64,000 nucleotides of DNA, from contig NZ_BCNY01000015.1 of assembly GCF_001602375.1 (NCBI RefSeq), forward strand, positions 310,001 to 374,000, given 5' to 3'. This stretch comes from Methanoculleus horonobensis (GTDB taxonomy: Archaea > Halobacteriota > Methanomicrobia > Methanomicrobiales > Methanoculleaceae). Under the pieces are notes generated by a model. That model did not search any database and was not told the DNA's origin. It saw nothing but the letters and a program-made list of their open reading frames with translations. Made by a program: the position numbers and the translations under genes. Positions 3,605 through 37,506 of the stretch are shown one piece after another (the stretch's first letter is position 1; each line of letters opens with the position of its first letter).

Positions 3605-3931
3605 TCAGAGATACCGGTTCTTCCGGAGCCATTCCACCTGGGGTTTGGTGTAGCGGTAGATGATATCGCACTTCTCGTCCTGGAAACTCCAGGGGACGAT
3701 CACCAGAATGTCTCCTTCCCGGATCCAGACCTTCTTCTTGATCTTGCCCTTGATCCGCCCGGTACGCGTCACCCCGTCGAAGCAGCGGATCTTGATATGA
3801 TTTGCGCCCAGCATCAGTTCGGCGTTCCCGAACATCTCCCGGTTTCTCTTGTTCGGCAGGCGCACGCGGATAATTTCATCCCCCGATTCTCCTCCAGCGG
3901 ATCCGGGCTTGCGCTTCGTAGGATCTGTCAG
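3605..3931 (-). CDS. eif1A: Translation initiation factor aIF1A, probable CTG start
   Basis: This is the archaeal homologue of eIF1A/IF1, which binds the A site of the small ribosomal subunit during initiation. The OB fold is clear: LPNKRNREMFG, GANHIKIRCFDG, RIKGKIKKKVWIREGD, VPWSFQDEKCDI. A start at GTG 3865 would cut into the conserved IIRVRLPN strand and give only 86 residues. The frame continues upstream without interruption through GSAGGESGDEIIRV, preceded by a basic tail TKRKPG, which is what family members have. No ATG, GTG or TTG occurs in that stretch. CTG at 3931-3929, preceded by a GGTTGATGA-like Shine-Dalgarno, is the best candidate and gives 108 residues. An upstream TATA-like TTGTATAAAT lies near 3980. 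Function is certain; the start is inferred. Confidence 0.88.
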   Translation of the reverse strand: MTDPTKRKPGSAGGESGDEIIRVRLPNKRNREMFGNAELMLGANHIKIRCFDGVTRTGRIKGKIKKKVWIREGDILVIVPWSFQDEKCDIIYRYTKPQVEWLRKNRYL

Positions 3932-29981: not shown

Positions 29982-30554
29982 ATGGTCGATCTGATCGAAG
30001 GAGTTGTAATCCTCGTATTGTTCCTCGCTGTTCTGGTCTTATTCTACAGATACTCCAGGATCCAGGGTCAGGTCGAGCAGAACGCACGGGAGATATTCGA
30101 AACCTGGCGCCGGGGGGAGCGGGAGGATATCGAGGCCTGGAAAGAGCGGGAACTCAGGCGCCTATCTGACGAGAAAGCAAGGATCCTCTTTGATGCGTGG
30201 AGGCAGGAAGAAGAGGGGAATATCCGCACCGACGCGGTCAGGCGCAGCCAGTCGGTGACCCGGGGGAAGGTCACGGAGTGCCTCATCCCGTACTTCCCCG
30301 ACTTCCCCTACAACCCGAAGGATGCACGGTTCTTAGGAACCCCGGTCGATCTCATCGTCTTCGACGGACTCTCCGACGCCGATGAGGTGGAGAAGGTTGT
30401 CTTTGTCGAGATAAAGACGGGCAAAGCCGCCAACCTGAGCAAACGGGAGCGTGCCGTCAGGGAGTGCATCAAAGCCGGGCGAGTGCAGTACTCCACCATC
30501 CACCAGTCGTTCGACGAAGACGCCAACCGGCTGCGGGATATGGGGATGAACTAG
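29982..30554 (+). CDS. Membrane-anchored Holliday junction resolvase-related nuclease
   Basis: A 190-residue protein: an N-terminal membrane helix (GVVILVLFLAVLVLFYRY), a charged coiled-coil (REIFETWRRGEREDIEAWKERELRRL), then a nuclease-like domain with the D...ExK core in GTPVDLIVFDG and VVFVEIKTGKAANLSKRER. This is the archaeal 'endonuclease related to Holliday junction resolvase' family (PF10107 as I recall). Membrane attachment of a nuclease-like domain is typical for the family, and its function is unknown. ATG 29982 starts the anchor helix. It follows the tRNA-Met by 145 bases. Confidence 0.8.
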   Translation: MVDLIEGVVILVLFLAVLVLFYRYSRIQGQVEQNAREIFETWRRGEREDIEAWKERELRRLSDEKARILFDAWRQEEEGNIRTDAVRRSQSVTRGKVTECLIPYFPDFPYNPKDARFLGTPVDLIVFDGLSDADEVEKVVFVEIKTGKAANLSKRERAVRECIKAGRVQYSTIHQSFDEDANRLRDMGMN

Positions 30555-30636: not shown

Positions 30637-31014
30637 TCACCGGGGCGACGGATCGAATGAGGCGTCCTCGTCCTCCGGGCACCCCTCCTCCCGCTCGCGG
30701 CCGCACCCAACGATCCGGATCGTCTTCCCGTGCACCAGGGCGTCCGCGACCTTTGCCCGCGCCTCGTGGAGGTCGCGCCAGAGGGTCTTTCGGGAGACGC
30801 CGAGGGCGACGGCGGCCTCCTCCTGCTCGAGCCCCTGGAGGTCGACGAGCCGCAGGGCCTCCACCTCCTCGGGGAGGACGACGACGAACTCATCAGGCCC
30901 CCCGCAGAGCGGGCCGAAACACCGGAACGCCCCCTGATTCCCGATCATCCGGCGAACCCGGGGCCTGCCCCGCTGGCGGCGGCCGCGCCCCTCGCCGGGT
31001 TCTCTCTCGTTCAT
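30637..31014 (-). CDS. DUF134 helix-turn-helix protein
   Basis: A 125-residue DNA-binding protein. The family pattern is clear: GRPRVRRMIG, FRCFGPLCG, VVLPEEVEALRLVDLQGLEQ, then the HTH EEAAVALGVSRKTLWRDLHEA and ARAKVADALVHGKTIRIVGCG. DUF134 proteins commonly sit beside NifX- and MinD-like genes in anaerobes and are candidate regulators of them. Here the cluster lies 7 kb away (21292-23785), where a palindromic operator-like site occurs. Acidic C-terminal tail with Cys (CGREREEGCPEDE). Confidence 0.85.
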   Translation of the reverse strand: MNEREPGEGRGRRQRGRPRVRRMIGNQGAFRCFGPLCGGPDEFVVVLPEEVEALRLVDLQGLEQEEAAVALGVSRKTLWRDLHEARAKVADALVHGKTIRIVGCGREREEGCPEDEDASFDPSPR

Positions 31015-31080
31015 GCTACCGATCTCCTGAGTAGAGATCGGTCTCCCGTCCAGATAGTGCCTTCGCTCCGGGTCGGCGGC

Positions 31081-31422
31081 TCACTCCGCCTCCCGGAGCA
31101 TCGCCTCAACCGCATCTGCCAGGGGCCCGAGTTCGGTCAGGATGATGTCCCAGAGAATTGTCGGTTTCACCGAGTAGTACGAGTGGACGCTTATGTCCCG
31201 GAGCCCGGCGATCTTTCGCCATTCAATCTCCGGATGACCTGCGGTAATATCGGCAGGGATCTGCTTCACCGCTTCCCCAATTGTGATGAACCTGAGCACG
31301 ACGGCATCAAGGCACATGGGATCGCCCGCAAACTCCTCAAACGTCCGGTCCCCTGCATAGGAGCTGATGGAAGCGATGGCATCACGGATGTCCTCCAGAT
31401 AGAGGAGGAGATCCCTAGGCAT
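31081..31422 (-). CDS. hepT: HepT-type toxin (DUF86 HEPN ribonuclease)
   Basis: A 113-residue helical HEPN protein with the RNase motif R-x4-H-x-Y in RDISVHSYYSV. N-terminal helices (MPRDLLLYLEDIRDAIASI) and the FEEFAGDPMCLDAVVLRFITIGEAV core fit the HepT family. HepT cleaves RNA and is neutralised by MntA, which adenylylates it. The gene overlaps mntA by 8 bases, in the standard mntA-hepT order. GTG 31434 is another possible start. The pair is a type VII toxin-antitoxin module. Confidence 0.88.
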   Translation of the reverse strand: MPRDLLLYLEDIRDAIASISSYAGDRTFEEFAGDPMCLDAVVLRFITIGEAVKQIPADITAGHPEIEWRKIAGLRDISVHSYYSVKPTILWDIILTELGPLADAVEAMLREAE

Positions 31423-31702
31423 AGACGACCTCACCGAGGACAGTCTCCCGGATCCGGGGCTTCAAGGTATCGGTGATGACGAGATCCGTCCTTCGTCCCA
31501 GGAGATCCTCAAGGTAGAACTTGAGGCCCATGAAGTGATCAAAGGTCTCCTCCCCCTCCCGGAACTCCACCAGAATATCGATGTCGCTTGCCCCGGTGGC
31601 CTCGCCACGCGCCACAGATCCGAAGATGCCGATACGGGCTACGCCATAGCGTTCCCGGATAGTGTGAAGATTCTGCTGGATCTGGGTGAGTGGATGTACC
31701 AT
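31415..31702 (-). CDS. mntA: MntA-type minimal nucleotidyltransferase (antitoxin)
   Basis: A 95-residue MNT-family protein with the catalytic GSVARGEATGASDIDILVEF (G-S...D-x-D), a following acid region and EDLLGRRTDLVITDTLK. In known pairs the antitoxin adenylylates the tyrosine of the HepT RNase motif. ATG 31702 lies about 25-30 bases downstream of the TATA box GGATATAAGT (31727-31736), so the mRNA is probably leaderless. Upstream ATGs (31720, 31744) are less consistent with this. Confidence 0.87.
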   Translation of the reverse strand: MVHPLTQIQQNLHTIRERYGVARIGIFGSVARGEATGASDIDILVEFREGEETFDHFMGLKFYLEDLLGRRTDLVITDTLKPRIRETVLGEVVYA

Positions 31703-31726
31703 TATTCTGTGATGCTGCATCCATCC

Positions 31727-31736
31727 ACTTATATCC
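31727..31736 (-). promoter_or_regulatory. TATA box of the mntA-hepT operon
   Basis: On the minus strand GGATATAAGT lies about 25-34 bases before ATG 31702, supporting a leaderless transcript. It sits in the 72 bases after the pseudogene stop. Confidence 0.55.
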
Positions 31737-31773
31737 TCCGGCATCAGGCTGCTCTTCACCGGGAGGGAGGGGA

Positions 31774-32832
31774 TCACCCCCTCCGCACGCGAACGAGAAG
31801 CCCCGCCCCGGCGAGACCTGCAATTCCCGTGAGCCACGAGAACGGCAGCCCGGCCCGCTGGACGGCGGTCGCCGACGCGACGGGGCCGAACGTTAATGTC
31901 GGCTCGGTGAGGGGAGGGGTCGTCGCCACAGTCTCCTCCGCCGGCACGGCAAAGACCGCAACCAGAGTGAAGTGCGGGACCGCCGCGGTGACCGTCCGGG
32001 TCGCGGGATTGACCGTCGTGGCGAGGGATTCCCAGGCGCCGGTCGCGCTGTTGTACAACCGGACAGCGAACTGCCCGGCCGCATAGCGCTTCCACTCCTC
32101 CGGGGTGAGGGTGAACGAGACCTCGATCGGCGGGTCGAAGGTCGCACCGTCGGGGCCGCACCGGAGCGCCCGGCCGACCGGCGCTTCCCCCTCACCGGGG
32201 GCGGGGAGGTCAGCGGGAGGGACACTCCTCACACTCACCATACTGAGTGGCCTCCCAAAACGGTCCTCTCCTCGGACACCCGGAGCGATGGAGAGGCTGG
32301 CGTCCCCCTCCGTGGTGGTGATGACGGTTGCAACCTGGACCGCGCCAGCGGCATCGGTCTGCAGGGAACCGCTCCCGGTATACTCCGCCACCGGTGCTGC
32401 GGGTATAAATGACCCAAACGAGCCACCCCCACCCCCGCCGCCACCACCCGATGCCCCACCACCGCCGGAAGAACCGCCGGATTCGCTACCCTTCGTCGCC
32501 GCGAGAGCAAGGCTTGCGGAGGTGCCGGGGGTGTAGACCGAGGTTCTGGGGGCCGTTATCCCATCGACAAGGAACGTGATGCTCTTCCCGGCATCACCCT
32601 CGTCTCCCCTGACGAGCAGGCGTTCGTCAAAGAGGACGTCACCGCCAAAGACCCCGATGGCGGTGAGTGGGGCGTTCCGCAGTCACGATCATCGATCCGG
32701 GCGGTGATGACGGGCCCGGCCGGCGCCGGGCTTTTGTCGATCGTGACCATACCCGAGAACTCCGCGGAAGGATGAGATGGCTGGTGCCGCTCCCGCGAGG
32801 GCGAGGAGGAAGAGCAAAACCGTCTCATTCAC
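31774..32832 (-). pseudogene. Secreted surface-protein gene broken by two compensating frameshifts
   Basis: Reading from GTG 32832: a signal peptide (VNETVLLFLLALAGAAPAIS) in one frame, then an extracellular domain (AEFSGMVTIDKSPAPAG, then PVITARIDDRDCG) continues in a second frame after about 32765, and APLTAIGVFGGDVLFDE returns to the first frame after about 32690. The rest (LLVRGDEGDAGKSITFLVDG, a Gly-rich stretch, EVSFTLTPEEWKRYA, a C-terminal membrane helix and RVRRG) is intact. A TGA separates the first and last parts in their common frame. The parts form one plausible protein, so I read it as a frameshifted surface-protein gene. Sequencing error is the alternative. It follows the S-layer gene directly. 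Confidence 0.6.
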
Positions 32833-32833
32833 C

Positions 32834-34954
32834 TCACACCCCCATGACGCCGAGGGTGCCCGGCCCGGCCATGTAGAGCCAGTAGCCCCGGCCGGGGTAG
32901 ACCGCTCTCGTATCGGCGTTCTGGCCGCTCCCGCCGTTGACGATCACCGCTTCGAAGGCCTGCGCCCCGCCGTTAAACCCGATCAGGGTCGTCCACTGCC
33001 CGTCGACCGAGTAGAGGGCGTCCCGTGCCGTCATCGGGGAGGTGCCGGGGAAACCGACTGCGTTCCAGCCGACCACGAGGCTGCGCTCCGGGGGCGAGAC
33101 CGGGAGGGCGGTCGAGAAGTTGAGGGCGACCGTCGCGGGCCCGGCCGAGTAGATCCAGATCCCTTCGAGGGGGACGAGGGGGTCGGTCAGTGTGAGGGCT
33201 ATCCACGTCCCGCTGGCGGTGTCGTAGCGGAGGACTGAGTGGCCGTCGGTATCGACGGCAGAAAAGATTGCTGCGGTGTCGTTCCCTGACGCAAGCGGCT
33301 GGGGGATCGAGATGAAGTTCCAGCCCGGGGCGAGGGTGAGGTTGTCGCCGGAGAGCGGAGACTCTCGACTCTCGATCACGGTGAAAGTCGCATTCTGGGT
33401 CGCAGCCGTCCTGATCGACTCAACCGTGACGACGTACTGACCCGGCCGAAAACCGGTCGCATTGACCTCAAAAGACCACCTGTTCAGACCGTCACCCTTC
33501 ACGACGGCTACAGTACCGGCGTCTGTACTGTTATCGGCCGGACCGGCAACCGGGATCACCTCGACGGACAGCAGATTGCCGGCCGCGAGGCTCGTGGTGC
33601 CGGCGACTGTGAACGTGCTTCCCGTGGCCGGCTCGGCGATCGGGTCGATGAAGATCCGGGGCTCCTCGACAATGAAAGTGAAATTCGTATACGTGTCGAT
33701 GAACTGAGAGTCAAGGGCGGCGATCAGTGCGTCTGCCGCCTCGCGTGGCTGCAGAGCAGTAAGATTGACGGGTGTTATGTCGTTGCCGGTAAGCGTGGTG
33801 CCTGAAACCCGGACGTCGAATGCATCGTCATAGGGGTGCTGGACGACGACGTCGTAACGCCCGGTATGCATGGCCATCGTATCTTCAAACGAGATAGTGT
33901 ACTCAAACGTGCCATCGGAGCCGACAGGAGCAGGCTGCTGGAACCTGTAATAGTTCTCGCCGAATATCCATACGCGGACACTGGTCGGATCGCCGGTCGC
34001 AGTCCCGGTGATCACCAGATCGTCACCCTTCGCGACGACGGCGCTCGTGGTTGCCTCAACAAAAGGAGCCTGGAGTAGTATGGAAGTTGTGCTATAGGGA
34101 GCACCGTTGAGAGCGTTCCTGGCGCGGGGCTCCGGGAGAGCATAAACCGTGTAAACGCCGGCATCCAGTATCCTGGTGTAGAGGAGAGAAGTATTCCACC
34201 GATAAGTCCAGGTATCGTCGGTATCGACGTCCACCCGGGTGAAGGTGCTCTCGTTGCCGGTTTGAACGCCTGCACTGAGAACCCCTTTCCTGAGGTCTTC
34301 GAACCCGATGCCGTTAGGAGGGAGGTTCGGGCCGGTCAGGAAGAGGTAGGTGACGTCGTTATCGGTATTGGTCCCGGAGAAGACGATCTCGTCGCCCATA
34401 TGGTAGAAGCCGGTGCCGGATGGAAAGACGGTCACGGCACCCCTCTCGACGAGCACTTCGGCCTCATCGAAAACATCCGGGTTTGCCGGATCCTCGACAC
34501 GGATCGTGAACCGCCGTTCGCCGGTGCTCTGATCGGTGTCGAACTGAACGAACCGGGTACCAGCGACGTTGGTCGTAACAGTCGCTGCGGAACCGATGTT
34601 GTTCGTCACACCAACCTGGCCGGGTGCGATCTCCGGGTGCTCTCCGGGATCAAGGCCATCGACCTCCCTGACAGAGAGATGGTACTCCTTGCGCGGCTCG
34701 CCGGTGACGGTCACAATGAAGTCGTTTCCACGGATGATACTGCTCTTGCTGACAGCGATGGCGGGCATCCCGGCGCTCATGGTTCCTATCACTCCTGCTG
34801 TTTCAGCGTCAGATCCTGCTGCAGGAACCTGAATAAAGACGGTATCGCCGGCTGTGCCGGGGCTGTCAAATGCCGCCGCTGGCACAACGACCAGCGCAGC
34901 CAGGAGGGCCACGGCAACAGCCATCCGGATTGATGTTCGCTTTAAGCTCATCAT
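32834..34954 (-). CDS. DUF3821/S-layer-type glycoprotein
   Basis: A 706-residue exported protein. The signal peptide (IRMAVAVALLAALVVVPAAAF) is followed by a DUF3821-like region (GDTVFIQVPAAGSD, AISV-type repeats, FVQFDTDQSTG), a long series of beta-sandwich domains and, near the C-terminus, SEVIP/GWNFISIPQPL-type beta repeats and a GRGYWLYMAGPG end. Several sequons (NAT, NST) suggest glycosylation. This fits the S-layer and surface proteins of Methanomicrobiales. Domain SSL around residues 480-560 recurs in the protein at 53110. Start ATG 34954 is preceded by GGGATT. The pseudogene follows 1 base after its stop. Confidence 0.75.
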   Translation of the reverse strand: MMSLKRTSIRMAVAVALLAALVVVPAAAFDSPGTAGDTVFIQVPAAGSDAETAGVIGTMSAGMPAIAVSKSSIIRGNDFIVTVTGEPRKEYHLSVREVDGLDPGEHPEIAPGQVGVTNNIGSAATVTTNVAGTRFVQFDTDQSTGERRFTIRVEDPANPDVFDEAEVLVERGAVTVFPSGTGFYHMGDEIVFSGTNTDNDVTYLFLTGPNLPPNGIGFEDLRKGVLSAGVQTGNESTFTRVDVDTDDTWTYRWNTSLLYTRILDAGVYTVYALPEPRARNALNGAPYSTTSILLQAPFVEATTSAVVAKGDDLVITGTATGDPTSVRVWIFGENYYRFQQPAPVGSDGTFEYTISFEDTMAMHTGRYDVVVQHPYDDAFDVRVSGTTLTGNDITPVNLTALQPREAADALIAALDSQFIDTYTNFTFIVEEPRIFIDPIAEPATGSTFTVAGTTSLAAGNLLSVEVIPVAGPADNSTDAGTVAVVKGDGLNRWSFEVNATGFRPGQYVVTVESIRTAATQNATFTVIESRESPLSGDNLTLAPGWNFISIPQPLASGNDTAAIFSAVDTDGHSVLRYDTASGTWIALTLTDPLVPLEGIWIYSAGPATVALNFSTALPVSPPERSLVVGWNAVGFPGTSPMTARDALYSVDGQWTTLIGFNGGAQAFEAVIVNGGSGQNADTRAVYPGRGYWLYMAGPGTLGVMGV

Positions 34955-35289
34955 AATCCCTTTCTCGATGGTGCGTAGCCGGGAGGGCTTGCACCACGCA
35001 GGACGCTGGTCGCGGAAGCTGGAGCGGGAGACGGATATCGGTCGACCGGTTGGTGCCCCCATCCCGTGCGCGGGCCACGATCTCGTGTAAGGCAGATAAA
35101 GATGTCGTTACCGGCCGGGTTGTAGAATCAGGGGCATATTTATCCAGCATCGTAGGAGAACCGGTTCTCCTTTACGGTGATGGCCGGGTTCCCACCGGCT
35201 GTCGGGCTCCGGGGCGGCCCCATGAGATACTGACCGGCCCGGAGGGAGAATAAGTTGTCTGTCTGGAACAGCGAAACCGTTGCCGGCAG
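34955..35289. other. Promoter region of the S-layer-type gene
   Basis: About 335 bases with no gene. On the minus strand two TATA-like elements occur, GGATAAATATGCC (about 35134-35146) and ATCTTTATCTGCC (about 35092-35104), which would give leaders of about 115-155 bases. An 18-bp perfect palindrome lies just upstream of the first. Confidence 0.45.
35154..35171 (-). promoter_or_regulatory. 18-bp perfect palindrome upstream of the S-layer promoter
   Basis: AGGAGAACCGGTTCTCCT is a perfect palindrome with no spacer. It lies 8 bases upstream of the distal TATA-like element on the minus strand, a typical activator position. Confidence 0.5.
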
Positions 35290-35499
35290 TCATGCCCGGC
35301 TATCCTTCTTCCGGCGCTCCAGAATTCCTGCAACAACCGTATCGAGATCCTGTTCGAGCCAGATCTTACGTTCTTTGGTATAGTCCCCGCTTCCGTGGGA
35401 GTAACTCCGGATGAACCGTATCGCATCGGCAGGCCCGAGGCTCCTCACCAGTGCCTCGAACCCCCGGACCCTGATCTCATTAAGCGTCTTCACTTCCAT
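35290..35499 (-). CDS. Small hypothetical protein, likely toxin-antitoxin partner
   Basis: A 69-residue protein: MEVKTLNEIRVRGFEALVRS, then LGPADAIRFIRSYSHGSGDYTKERKIWLEQ and DLDTVVAGILERRKKDSRA. The 'EALVRxLGPxDAIRFI' and GSGDYTKER patterns occur in small proteins paired with PIN-like genes, as I recall; this is not verified. It overlaps the end of a PIN-like remnant by 20 bases, the spacing usual for toxin-antitoxin pairs. No membrane segment. Function unknown. Confidence 0.6.
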   Translation of the reverse strand: MEVKTLNEIRVRGFEALVRSLGPADAIRFIRSYSHGSGDYTKERKIWLEQDLDTVVAGILERRKKDSRA

Positions 35500-35640
35500 C
35501 GGCCGTCACCTCCATGAGCCACTGCACAGGATTGTATATCCAGATAGGGATCGTATCCGATATAACCCAGATGAGAACATCGTCCGTCGTGAGCAGTACA
35601 GCACCGGCACTCTCAGCAGGTGAGGGTGGAGAACATCGTC
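35480..35640 (-). pseudogene. Truncated C-terminus of a PIN-like toxin gene
   Basis: In the minus frame ending at TAA 35482-35480 the text reads AGAVLLTTDDVLIWVISDTI then PIWIYNPVQWLMEVTADGS. TTDDVL and the NPVQWLMEV end look like the last strand and helix of PIN-domain toxins. There is no start codon and no N-terminal half: sense is lost after about 35625. The truncation lies only about 25-40 bases from the tRNA-derived inverted repeat, which suggests a rearrangement point. Identity of the family is a judgement from the short tail. Confidence 0.4.
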
Positions 35641-35665
35641 TCCCGAACCGGCACCTGCCCCTTAT

Positions 35666-35726
35666 GGTCTAGCGGTACGACTTCGCCTACCCACGGCGAC
35701 GTCATAACCAGCTAGACCACGAGCCC
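35666..35726. other. Chimeric tRNA relic: two tRNA 5' halves in inverted orientation
   Basis: On the plus strand GGTCTAGCGGTACGACTTCG and CCTACCCACGGCGA (35666-35699) match the D-arm and anticodon arm of a Gly(CCC)-type tRNA. On the minus strand GGGCTCGTGGTCTAGC then TGGTTATGACGTCGCC (35726 down to 35695) match the acceptor, D-arm and start of the anticodon stem of a Val-type tRNA. Together they form a 24-bp imperfect inverted repeat around a 7-base loop TACCCAC. No T-arm or 3' acceptor strand exists on either strand. It is a relic, not a working tRNA. Next to it TGCCCC-ACCG-GGGGCA (about 35731-35746) forms a further hairpin. Confidence 0.55.
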
Positions 35727-35856
35727 ATTATGCCCCACCGGGGGCATCCACCGCATCCCGTTGAACTATCTGGAATTCTCGGATAGTTGCCCGGCACCAC
35801 ACCAGAAGAGCACCCGAGGGACAACCTATATCCCGCACCCCGCACCCTCACCGAGC

Positions 35857-37506
35857 ATGTCTGCCGGCGGACCGGACTGGAAGAAGAGCCTCCCCGCCGA
35901 CCTCGTCGCCGGGGCGACCACCGCCCTCGTCGGCATCCCGCAGGGGATGGGGTTCGCCCTCGTCGCCGGGGTCAACCCCGTCTACGGCCTCTATACCGCC
36001 GCATTCTCGACCGCGATCGGGGCGCTCCTCACCGGTTCCTCGTACCTCAAGGTGATGCTCTCGAACGTCCTCGCGGTCTCGATCTTCTCGGTCCTCGCCC
36101 CCGTCCCCGAGGCCGACGTCCCGGCCACCCTCTTCGTGCTGACCATCCTCGTCGGGGCCTTCCAGCTCGGGTTCGGGCTCCTCCGGGCAGGCAGCCTGAC
36201 CCGGTTCATCTCCACCGCCGTCCTCACCGGGTTCGTCACTGGCGCGGCGCTCCTCATCGTCCTCGGCCAGCTCGGCAACCTCACCGGCTACCAGCTCCCG
36301 CGGGAGGCGATCCAGGTCCTCGCCATCCCCGAGTTGCTCCTCCACGCAGGCGAGATCCAGCCGCAGGCGCTCTTCGTCGGCCTCCTCACCATCAGTCTCG
36401 CCCTCGCCCTTCAGCGGGTGCCGCGCCTCACTTCCTTCTCGCTCCTCCTCCCGGTCATCATCGCGGCCCTCCTCGTCCGGATCGCGCTTCCGGAAGTCGC
36501 GATCGTCGGCGATATCGCCGCCATCCCCGCCGGCCTCCCGGCACCCATCATCCCCGACCTCGCCCTCGCGCCCGGGCTCCTCGTCCCGGCGCTCGCCCTC
36601 GCCATCATCGGGCTCGTGATGGCCGTCGGGGTCACCGAGACGACCCCGGAGCTGGACGGCAGCATCGCCGACGTGAACCGGGACTTCTCCGGGCAGGGGG
36701 TGACGAACATCCTCGCGAGTCTCCTCCAGTGCGCCCCGTCGGCCGGCTCTCTCTCGGCAACGGCGCTCAACGTCGCCGCCGGGGCAGAGACCCGGGCGGC
36801 AAACCTCTTCTCGGGCATCCTCGTCGGGGCGGTCATCGTTGTCGCGGGCCCGCTCGCGGAACAGATCCCGCTCCCGGCCCTCGCCGGGATCCTGATCCTC
36901 ATCGGCGCCGAACTCATCTACCAACCCCGCGAGATCGCCTGCATCTGGAAGTACTCCCGCCCCGGGCGCTGGGCGATGGTTGCCACCTTCATCTCCACCC
37001 AGGTGCTCCCGCTCCAGTACAGCATCTACGTCGGCGTCCTCCTCTCGCTTGCCGTCTACCTGGTCACCTCCACGCGGGAAGCGACCGTGATCCGCCTCGT
37101 CCCGGTCGAGGGAGGGATGTTCCAGGAAGAACCGGCTCCGGGGCGGCTCTTAGCCGGCCGGATCACCGTCCTCGCCATCTCCGGCAGTGTCTACTTCGCC
37201 ACCCTCAGGGCGATCGAGCGGTCGCTCCCGTCCCCGGAGGGGGCGGAAGGCGCTATCGTCATCCTCTCCCTTCGGGGGAGGATCGAGGTAGGTATCGGGA
37301 TCTTTCGGATGCTGGAGCGCTACGCCCGGCGCGTTCAGGCGCACGGGGGCCGGCTCATCCTCGCCGAGGTTGATCCGCGGCTCCTTGCTGGCCTCGAAGG
37401 GAGCGGAGCAGCCGCAGTCATCGGTCATAGAAACATCTTCCCCGCGACGCCGGTCATCGGGGAGTCGCTTCGGGCGGCCATCCGGGCGATGGGGGCCGGA
37501 AGGTGA
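35857..37506 (+). CDS. SulP-family inorganic anion transporter with STAS domain
   Basis: A 549-residue protein: about 11-14 membrane helices (SulP signature region GIPQGMGFALVAGVNPVYGLYTAAFST) and a C-terminal STAS domain (ISGSVYFATLRAIERS... to VIGHRNIFPATP). SulP proteins import sulfate, molybdate, bicarbonate or nitrate. The substrate is not readable from sequence. The TATA box CCTATATC at 35825-35832 lies about 28 bases before ATG 35857, so the mRNA is probably leaderless, and earlier starts are unlikely. Next gene is 47 bases downstream on the same strand. Confidence 0.88.
   Translation: MSAGGPDWKKSLPADLVAGATTALVGIPQGMGFALVAGVNPVYGLYTAAFSTAIGALLTGSSYLKVMLSNVLAVSIFSVLAPVPEADVPATLFVLTILVGAFQLGFGLLRAGSLTRFISTAVLTGFVTGAALLIVLGQLGNLTGYQLPREAIQVLAIPELLLHAGEIQPQALFVGLLTISLALALQRVPRLTSFSLLLPVIIAALLVRIALPEVAIVGDIAAIPAGLPAPIIPDLALAPGLLVPALALAIIGLVMAVGVTETTPELDGSIADVNRDFSGQGVTNILASLLQCAPSAGSLSATALNVAAGAETRAANLFSGILVGAVIVVAGPLAEQIPLPALAGILILIGAELIYQPREIACIWKYSRPGRWAMVATFISTQVLPLQYSIYVGVLLSLAVYLVTSTREATVIRLVPVEGGMFQEEPAPGRLLAGRITVLAISGSVYFATLRAIERSLPSPEGAEGAIVILSLRGRIEVGIGIFRMLERYARRVQAHGGRLILAEVDPRLLAGLEGSGAAAVIGHRNIFPATPVIGESLRAAIRAMGAGR

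Follow-up and report, generated by a model that had tools for sequence, protein, structure and literature searches.

A tRNA-derived inverted repeat conserved upstream of sulP in Methanoculleus and its possible role as a DNA site

Introduction

Fragments of tRNA genes in prokaryotes are usually read as integration scars. Integrating mobile elements leave partial tRNA genes, the same tRNA standing complete at one end of the insert and partial at the other, with an integrase inside (PMC9897764), tRNA array units are carried by mobile elements (PMC5966550), a predicted pseudo-tRNA of Bacillus cereus, a non-translating tRNA-like sequence at an island border, had an effect when it was deleted (PMC3399842), and archaeal split tRNA halves are broken in the anticodon region (PMC2237900). 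Here we describe an inverted repeat of two tRNA 5′ halves (the element) upstream of sulP, a SulP family anion transporter gene, in a stretch of 64,000 nucleotides from the archaeon Methanoculleus horonobensis (GCF_001602375.1, contig NZ_BCNY01000015.1, positions 310,001 to 374,000; the window, whose own numbering is used throughout), and compare it with related genomes, which we denote by G numbers.

Like a partial tRNA gene, the element is a tRNA-gene fragment adjoining an archaeal accessory-gene hotspot, but here two 5′ halves stand head to head, in tandem units, conserved across the genus and with no partner copy at the other border. In the two-ended test for a partial tRNA gene left by integration, no tRNA-Val or tRNA-Gly gene was found at either hotspot border, the left border being a DUF134 gene with a tRNA-Met gene further left. 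It shares with the B. cereus case a non-translating tRNA-like sequence at an island border, but there a pseudo-tRNA was predicted, whereas here two 5′ halves are inverted and the T arm is missing. The break in the anticodon region recalls split tRNA halves; however, no separate 3′ half gene was found (in the one search made, a DNA search with the element itself), and both halves are inverted 5′ halves. Arrays in G002 and G046 cluster several tRNA-like pieces in an island, as array units do, but these pieces have no acceptor stems and are not called as tRNAs, and the sulP element holds Gly/Val-type halves only. The literature searched did not yield an archaeal case of inverted tRNA 5′ halves, and a conserved inverted repeat at a single locus suggests that tRNA sequence may have been reused as an archaeal DNA site.

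Structure and source of the element

The left arm (35665–35687, plus strand; direct sequence read and arm-to-tRNA matching) reads TGGTCTAGCGGTACGACTTCGCC and is a tRNA-Gly(UCC)- or Val-like 5′ half comprising the D arm and the 5′ strand of the anticodon stem. The right arm (35695–35726, minus strand) is the exact reverse complement of tRNA-Val nucleotides 1–32, that is the 5′ strand of the acceptor stem, the D arm and the 5′ strand of the anticodon stem, with 100% identity and E-values of 8.5e-10 to 1.3e-10 in BLAST against the genome's own Val genes. Both halves end at the anticodon loop and are joined head to head (35665–35726) across a 7-nt loop (35688–35694) at the anticodon-loop place, which differs between species in sequence and length (6–7 nt) in folds and unit comparison. 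A covariance model (R1) matches the entire element at 35657–35729, with 84.4 bits on the minus strand and 40.2 bits on the plus strand. The stem folds in both strands (z of −4.3 and −3.4, with no shuffle as good), although comparable stem energy is not rare in this G+C-rich window (180/2558 windows); a chance palindrome is excluded by the tRNA identity and the genus-wide conservation, the fold energy alone being unremarkable. The element has no T arm and falls short of what marks a tRNA gene in RF00005, a cloverleaf with acceptor stem and T arm that scores above the gathering cut-off, and neither ARAGORN nor Rfam calls a tRNA at the locus. The original prediction of a hairpin without a T arm, built from a Gly(CCC)-like 5′ half and the reverse complement of a Val-like one, thus holds for the inverted repeat and, exactly, for the Val half, and the sequence is related to the genome's own tRNA genes; Gly(CCC) was the wrong source for the left arm, as the genome's Gly(CCC) gene differs and Gly(UCC) or Val(UAC) fits better.

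The host genome (2.45 Mb) has three tRNA-Val and three tRNA-Gly genes among the loci read. The right arm is identical to Val(CAC) and Val(GAC), and across units right arms are exactly tRNA-Val over up to 35 nt. For the left arm no gene in the genome is an exact donor; in the window copy its score is 17 against Val(UAC) and 16 against Gly(UCC). In G007, G011, G003 and G015 the homologous arm is clearly closest to Gly(UCC), agreeing at 19/19 nt in G007, and both arms are Val-like in G020a, G027 and G029. In this and other Methanoculleus genomes the genes for Gly(UCC) and Val(CAC) form a tandem pair with a few bases between them and, because the left arm is Gly(UCC)-like in relatives and the pair recurs across the genus, it is the likely source of the element.

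Distribution and conservation

Orthologues of SulP occur in 27 of the 35 genus genomes compared, and 19 of these 27 carry the element upstream of the gene, as one to three tandem units of about 130 bp. As for the remainder, G009 retains only a ghost of the element, six have none and the locus of G016 ends at a contig end; in G007 two units stand beside a broken SulP region. On the SulP tree the element is found in both deep branches, and we propose that most Methanoculleus inherited it from a common ancestor with one to three tandem units upstream of the gene, and that it has been kept in that place ever since. Against a background of about 25–38 bits from tRNA-Val genes, the covariance model finds one element locus per genus genome, besides the G002 array and a small contig of G026. 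The exact arm pattern GGTCTAG-N34-56-CTAGACC, searched in 199 Methanomicrobiales genomes, gave 12 sites in 10 of them, at sulP in nine Methanoculleus plus one in G047; pattern matches outside archaea look like chance, in unrelated sequence. A dispersed or mobile repeat family was rejected, there being a single locus per genus genome except in G002 and no match to plasmid or viral contigs; the G002 array likewise has no match in phages.

In distant species the arms are preserved far above their surroundings. Between G000 and G022 the arms agree at 48/50 positions and the loop at 6/7, whereas other upstream DNA is 46% identical and sulP fourfold sites 67%; between G022 and G015 the values are 45/50 for the arms, 2/7 for the loop and 42% for other upstream DNA. 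Over all units the mean pairwise identity of the right arm is 0.84–0.87, against 0.31–0.39 in the flanks, and the left arm scores low in this ungapped comparison owing to changes in its length. Covariation between the arms is not above that of shuffles (score 0.163 vs 0.158 shuffled; 161/500), so that an RNA structure under compensatory selection is unsupported; G-U and A-C cells in the stem stand at 45 to 31, G-U pairs are not strongly biased to one strand, and it therefore seems that each arm is conserved for its own sequence rather than through pairing.

The window copy differs from most of its close relatives, and from distant G001, in which two units are present. In G006 and G011 the two units are 132 bp apart and have an identical stretch of 25 bp in common, GGCGACGTCATAACCAGCTAGACCA. 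Window positions 35640–35727 match unit a (94% in G006, 91% in G011) and 35683–35760 match unit b, the unit nearest sulP (91% and 92%); the window copy thus represents two tandem units fused through this 25-bp repeat and, given the two units of those relatives, is most simply read as having lost one unit when direct repeats recombined. Upstream of sulP in G001, G012, G022 and G031, extra copies of TGGTCTAG or a near form stand directly beside the outer arm as a stutter. The locus had earlier been ascribed to recombination between tRNA genes at an integration or breakage site, next to a truncated gene. Comparison across species bears out the tRNA-gene origin, the position at the edge of a repeatedly inserted and deleted region (variable on its left side, the element itself being positionally conserved) and, in the fusion, recombination of units; a one-off scar does not agree with genus-wide retention in place and with arms kept so far above the flanks. 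Nor is the adjoining gene evidently truncated: homology runs through this 69-aa open reading frame (ORF; 35290–35499) in G006 and G011, and its homologue is shortened in G005.

A candidate DNA-level site upstream of sulP

The sulP gene (35857–37506, plus strand), identified by matches to the Sulfate_transp and STAS domains, lies downstream of the element in the genus. A TATA-like box, CCTATATC (35825–35832, plus strand), is found 32 bp before its ATG, and by sequence comparison this or a near form stands 32–33 bp before the ATG in nearly all species, whether or not they carry the element. With the box at −32, the sulP mRNA would be leaderless or have a short leader, which suggests that the element lies upstream of and outside it. 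A TATA-like box precedes the element itself, by 23–26 bp, only at the a unit in part of the two-unit loci, and there is none before the window copy, the b units or other a units.

A conserved tRNA-derived dyad is a well-supported description of the element, which probably has a function as a site and is less likely to be the scar of a rearrangement. As its arms are kept without covariation, no promoter precedes it consistently and it appears to lie outside the sulP mRNA, our preferred reading is a dyad site acting at the DNA level, either close to the promoter or bordering the hotspot, to which we give a probability of about 0.4. Extra TGGTCTAG copies adjoining the arms in several species also count for this. 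The 5′ halves of Gly(UCC) and Val genes, or of two Val genes, would have been joined at the anticodon loop, and the resulting long dyad would act as DNA, bound by a putative protein through its two tRNA-like arms, as an upstream control or boundary element that keeps the sulP promoter apart from the variable DNA to its left.

Several points weigh against such a site. It lies anywhere between about 10 and more than 100 bp from the promoter, the left arm is diverged in b units, and six SulP-bearing species do without it, so that it must be dispensable. A dyad of 2 × 23–27 bp is long for an archaeal operator. The contrast between arms and flanks is small in close pairs (the flanks of G000 and G006 are also 92% identical) and absent between G020 and G031 (arms 0.89, flanks 0.88), and right arms, being equal to tRNA-Val, could be maintained by gene conversion.

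The accessory-gene hotspot and alternative explanations

Between the DUF134 gene (30637–31014, minus strand; domain matches and locus comparison) and the element lies an accessory-gene hotspot (31075–35650), which in the window holds a HepT/MntA pair, a 742-aa surface-type protein and the 69-aa ORF. Its left border, at 31069–31079, is near-constant, with DUF134 on that side in nearly all genomes compared, and the element forms its fixed right edge, where the neighbouring sequence is of at least eight kinds across the species. The distance from the DUF134 border to the element is 102 bp in G015, 229 bp in G003, 3.5 kb in G005, 4.6 kb in the window and 6–8 kb in G011 and G006; from the same border it is 58 bp to sulP in G017, which has no element, and 492 bp to the sulP promoter block in G020. 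Overall the hotspot ranges from 58 bp to 7.7 kb in relatives and its contents differ in nearly every species. The element would also serve to mark a hotspot of defence and surface genes, and would provide a case on which the origin of tRNA-derived DNA sites can be tested.

This setting invites the alternative that the element is itself a recombination or attachment-like site, in which a tRNA-gene-derived site of the tyrosine-recombinase type would have the anticodon stem and 6–7 nt spacer as its core, with the element as the active border of the hotspot. The core is symmetric (CGCC-7 nt-GGCG) with a variable spacer, the right edge is fixed against many different left neighbours with junctions near the element in G005 and G010, units occur in tandem and have fused in the window, and similar hairpins are found within defence islands of other genera. 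Yet no integrase was found among the window proteins checked or seen in the stretches read, in hotspots that are only partly annotated, the left border (31075) has no copy of the element, no cargo lies between tandem units and the breakpoints are not at one exact base; we consider this explanation unlikely.

A neutral relic is similarly doubtful. The units would be decaying tRNA pseudogene copies, their arms held tRNA-like by gene conversion with real tRNA-Val genes, in keeping with the long exact right arms, the divergence of b-unit left arms and the decay of the element to a ghost in G009 and to nothing in six species. Gene conversion with tRNA-Val could account for the right arms but not for the left arms, because these have no exact donor; the Gly-like left arm is nevertheless kept in distant species (both arms 48/50 between G000 and G022, with flanks near background), and the same position persists in both deep branches of the genus.

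That the hairpin is transcribed as a tRNA-mimic small RNA, a decoy for or partner of tRNA-Val or tRNA-binding proteins, seems rather improbable. It would explain a stable fold on both strands, the promoter-like box before some a units and one b unit with an acceptor-like closing stem, which is the best of the related units against the Rfam tRNA model, at 27.8 bits (cut-off 29). The stem, however, shows neither covariation nor strong G-U strand bias, the loops are not tRNA-like, and such a box is missing upstream of the window copy, of b units and of the remaining a units. A trans-spliced (split) tRNA half, which the original prediction had named as a remote alternative and which fits an arm ending at the anticodon loop, is most improbable, given that the genome has ordinary full tRNA-Val and tRNA-Gly genes, that no matching 3′ half was found in the element's own DNA search, that no promoter precedes the window copy or, consistently, other units, and that the anticodon loops (6–7 nt) vary freely.

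Related hairpins in the order

Related hairpins occur in other settings in G047, G042, G046 and G002. Independent Val-type hairpins of the same design are found at 3700–3774 of locus L143 (G042) and 5375–5449 of L145 (G047), near restriction, Druantia-like and transposase genes: the G047 hairpin has a type IV restriction enzyme, an RmrA-like regulator and Druantia-like genes as neighbours, that of G042 a C5-methylase and an EcoO109I-like nuclease, and that of G002 a JetC-like gene. As the G042 hairpin derives from Val(UAC), the origins of such hairpins are plural. The arrays of degenerate tRNA-like pieces (Asp-, Glu/Gln-, Val- and Ile-like, with no acceptor stems) lie at 2210–3045 of L142 (G002:C15) and 2990–3560 of L144 (G046:C27), and these two, from different families, share 88% identity over about 470 bp; the islands around them also hold defence or toxin-antitoxin genes. 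G046 has an Ile-type palindrome too, its arms separated by 7 nt, and no exact palindromes of the Asp/Glu/Gln type D arm were found across the order. The G046 and G047 hairpins, both from outside Methanoculleus, adjoin PIN/ImmA toxin-antitoxin genes, but 28/30 fetched PIN loci had no hairpin and we take this as co-residence in islands. Methanomicrobiales may have, and we suggest it only tentatively, a whole class of palindromic DNA elements in which tRNA 5′ halves stand head to head, joined at the anticodon loop. Such elements would have arisen several times and from a variety of tRNA genes (Gly/Val, Val/Val, Val(UAC) and possibly Ile), would be fixed upstream of sulP in Methanoculleus and carried in defence islands elsewhere, and would be recognised as sites in recombination or gene control.

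Two further features were seen in the window. A second short palindrome, AACTATC-N11-GATAGTT (35764–35788; sequence read), lies between the element and the sulP promoter and is present in several relatives too. Left of DUF134, in a variable stretch beside the tRNA-Met gene, is a gene of the Endonuc_Holl family (29982–30554), related to the archaeal Holliday junction resolvase.
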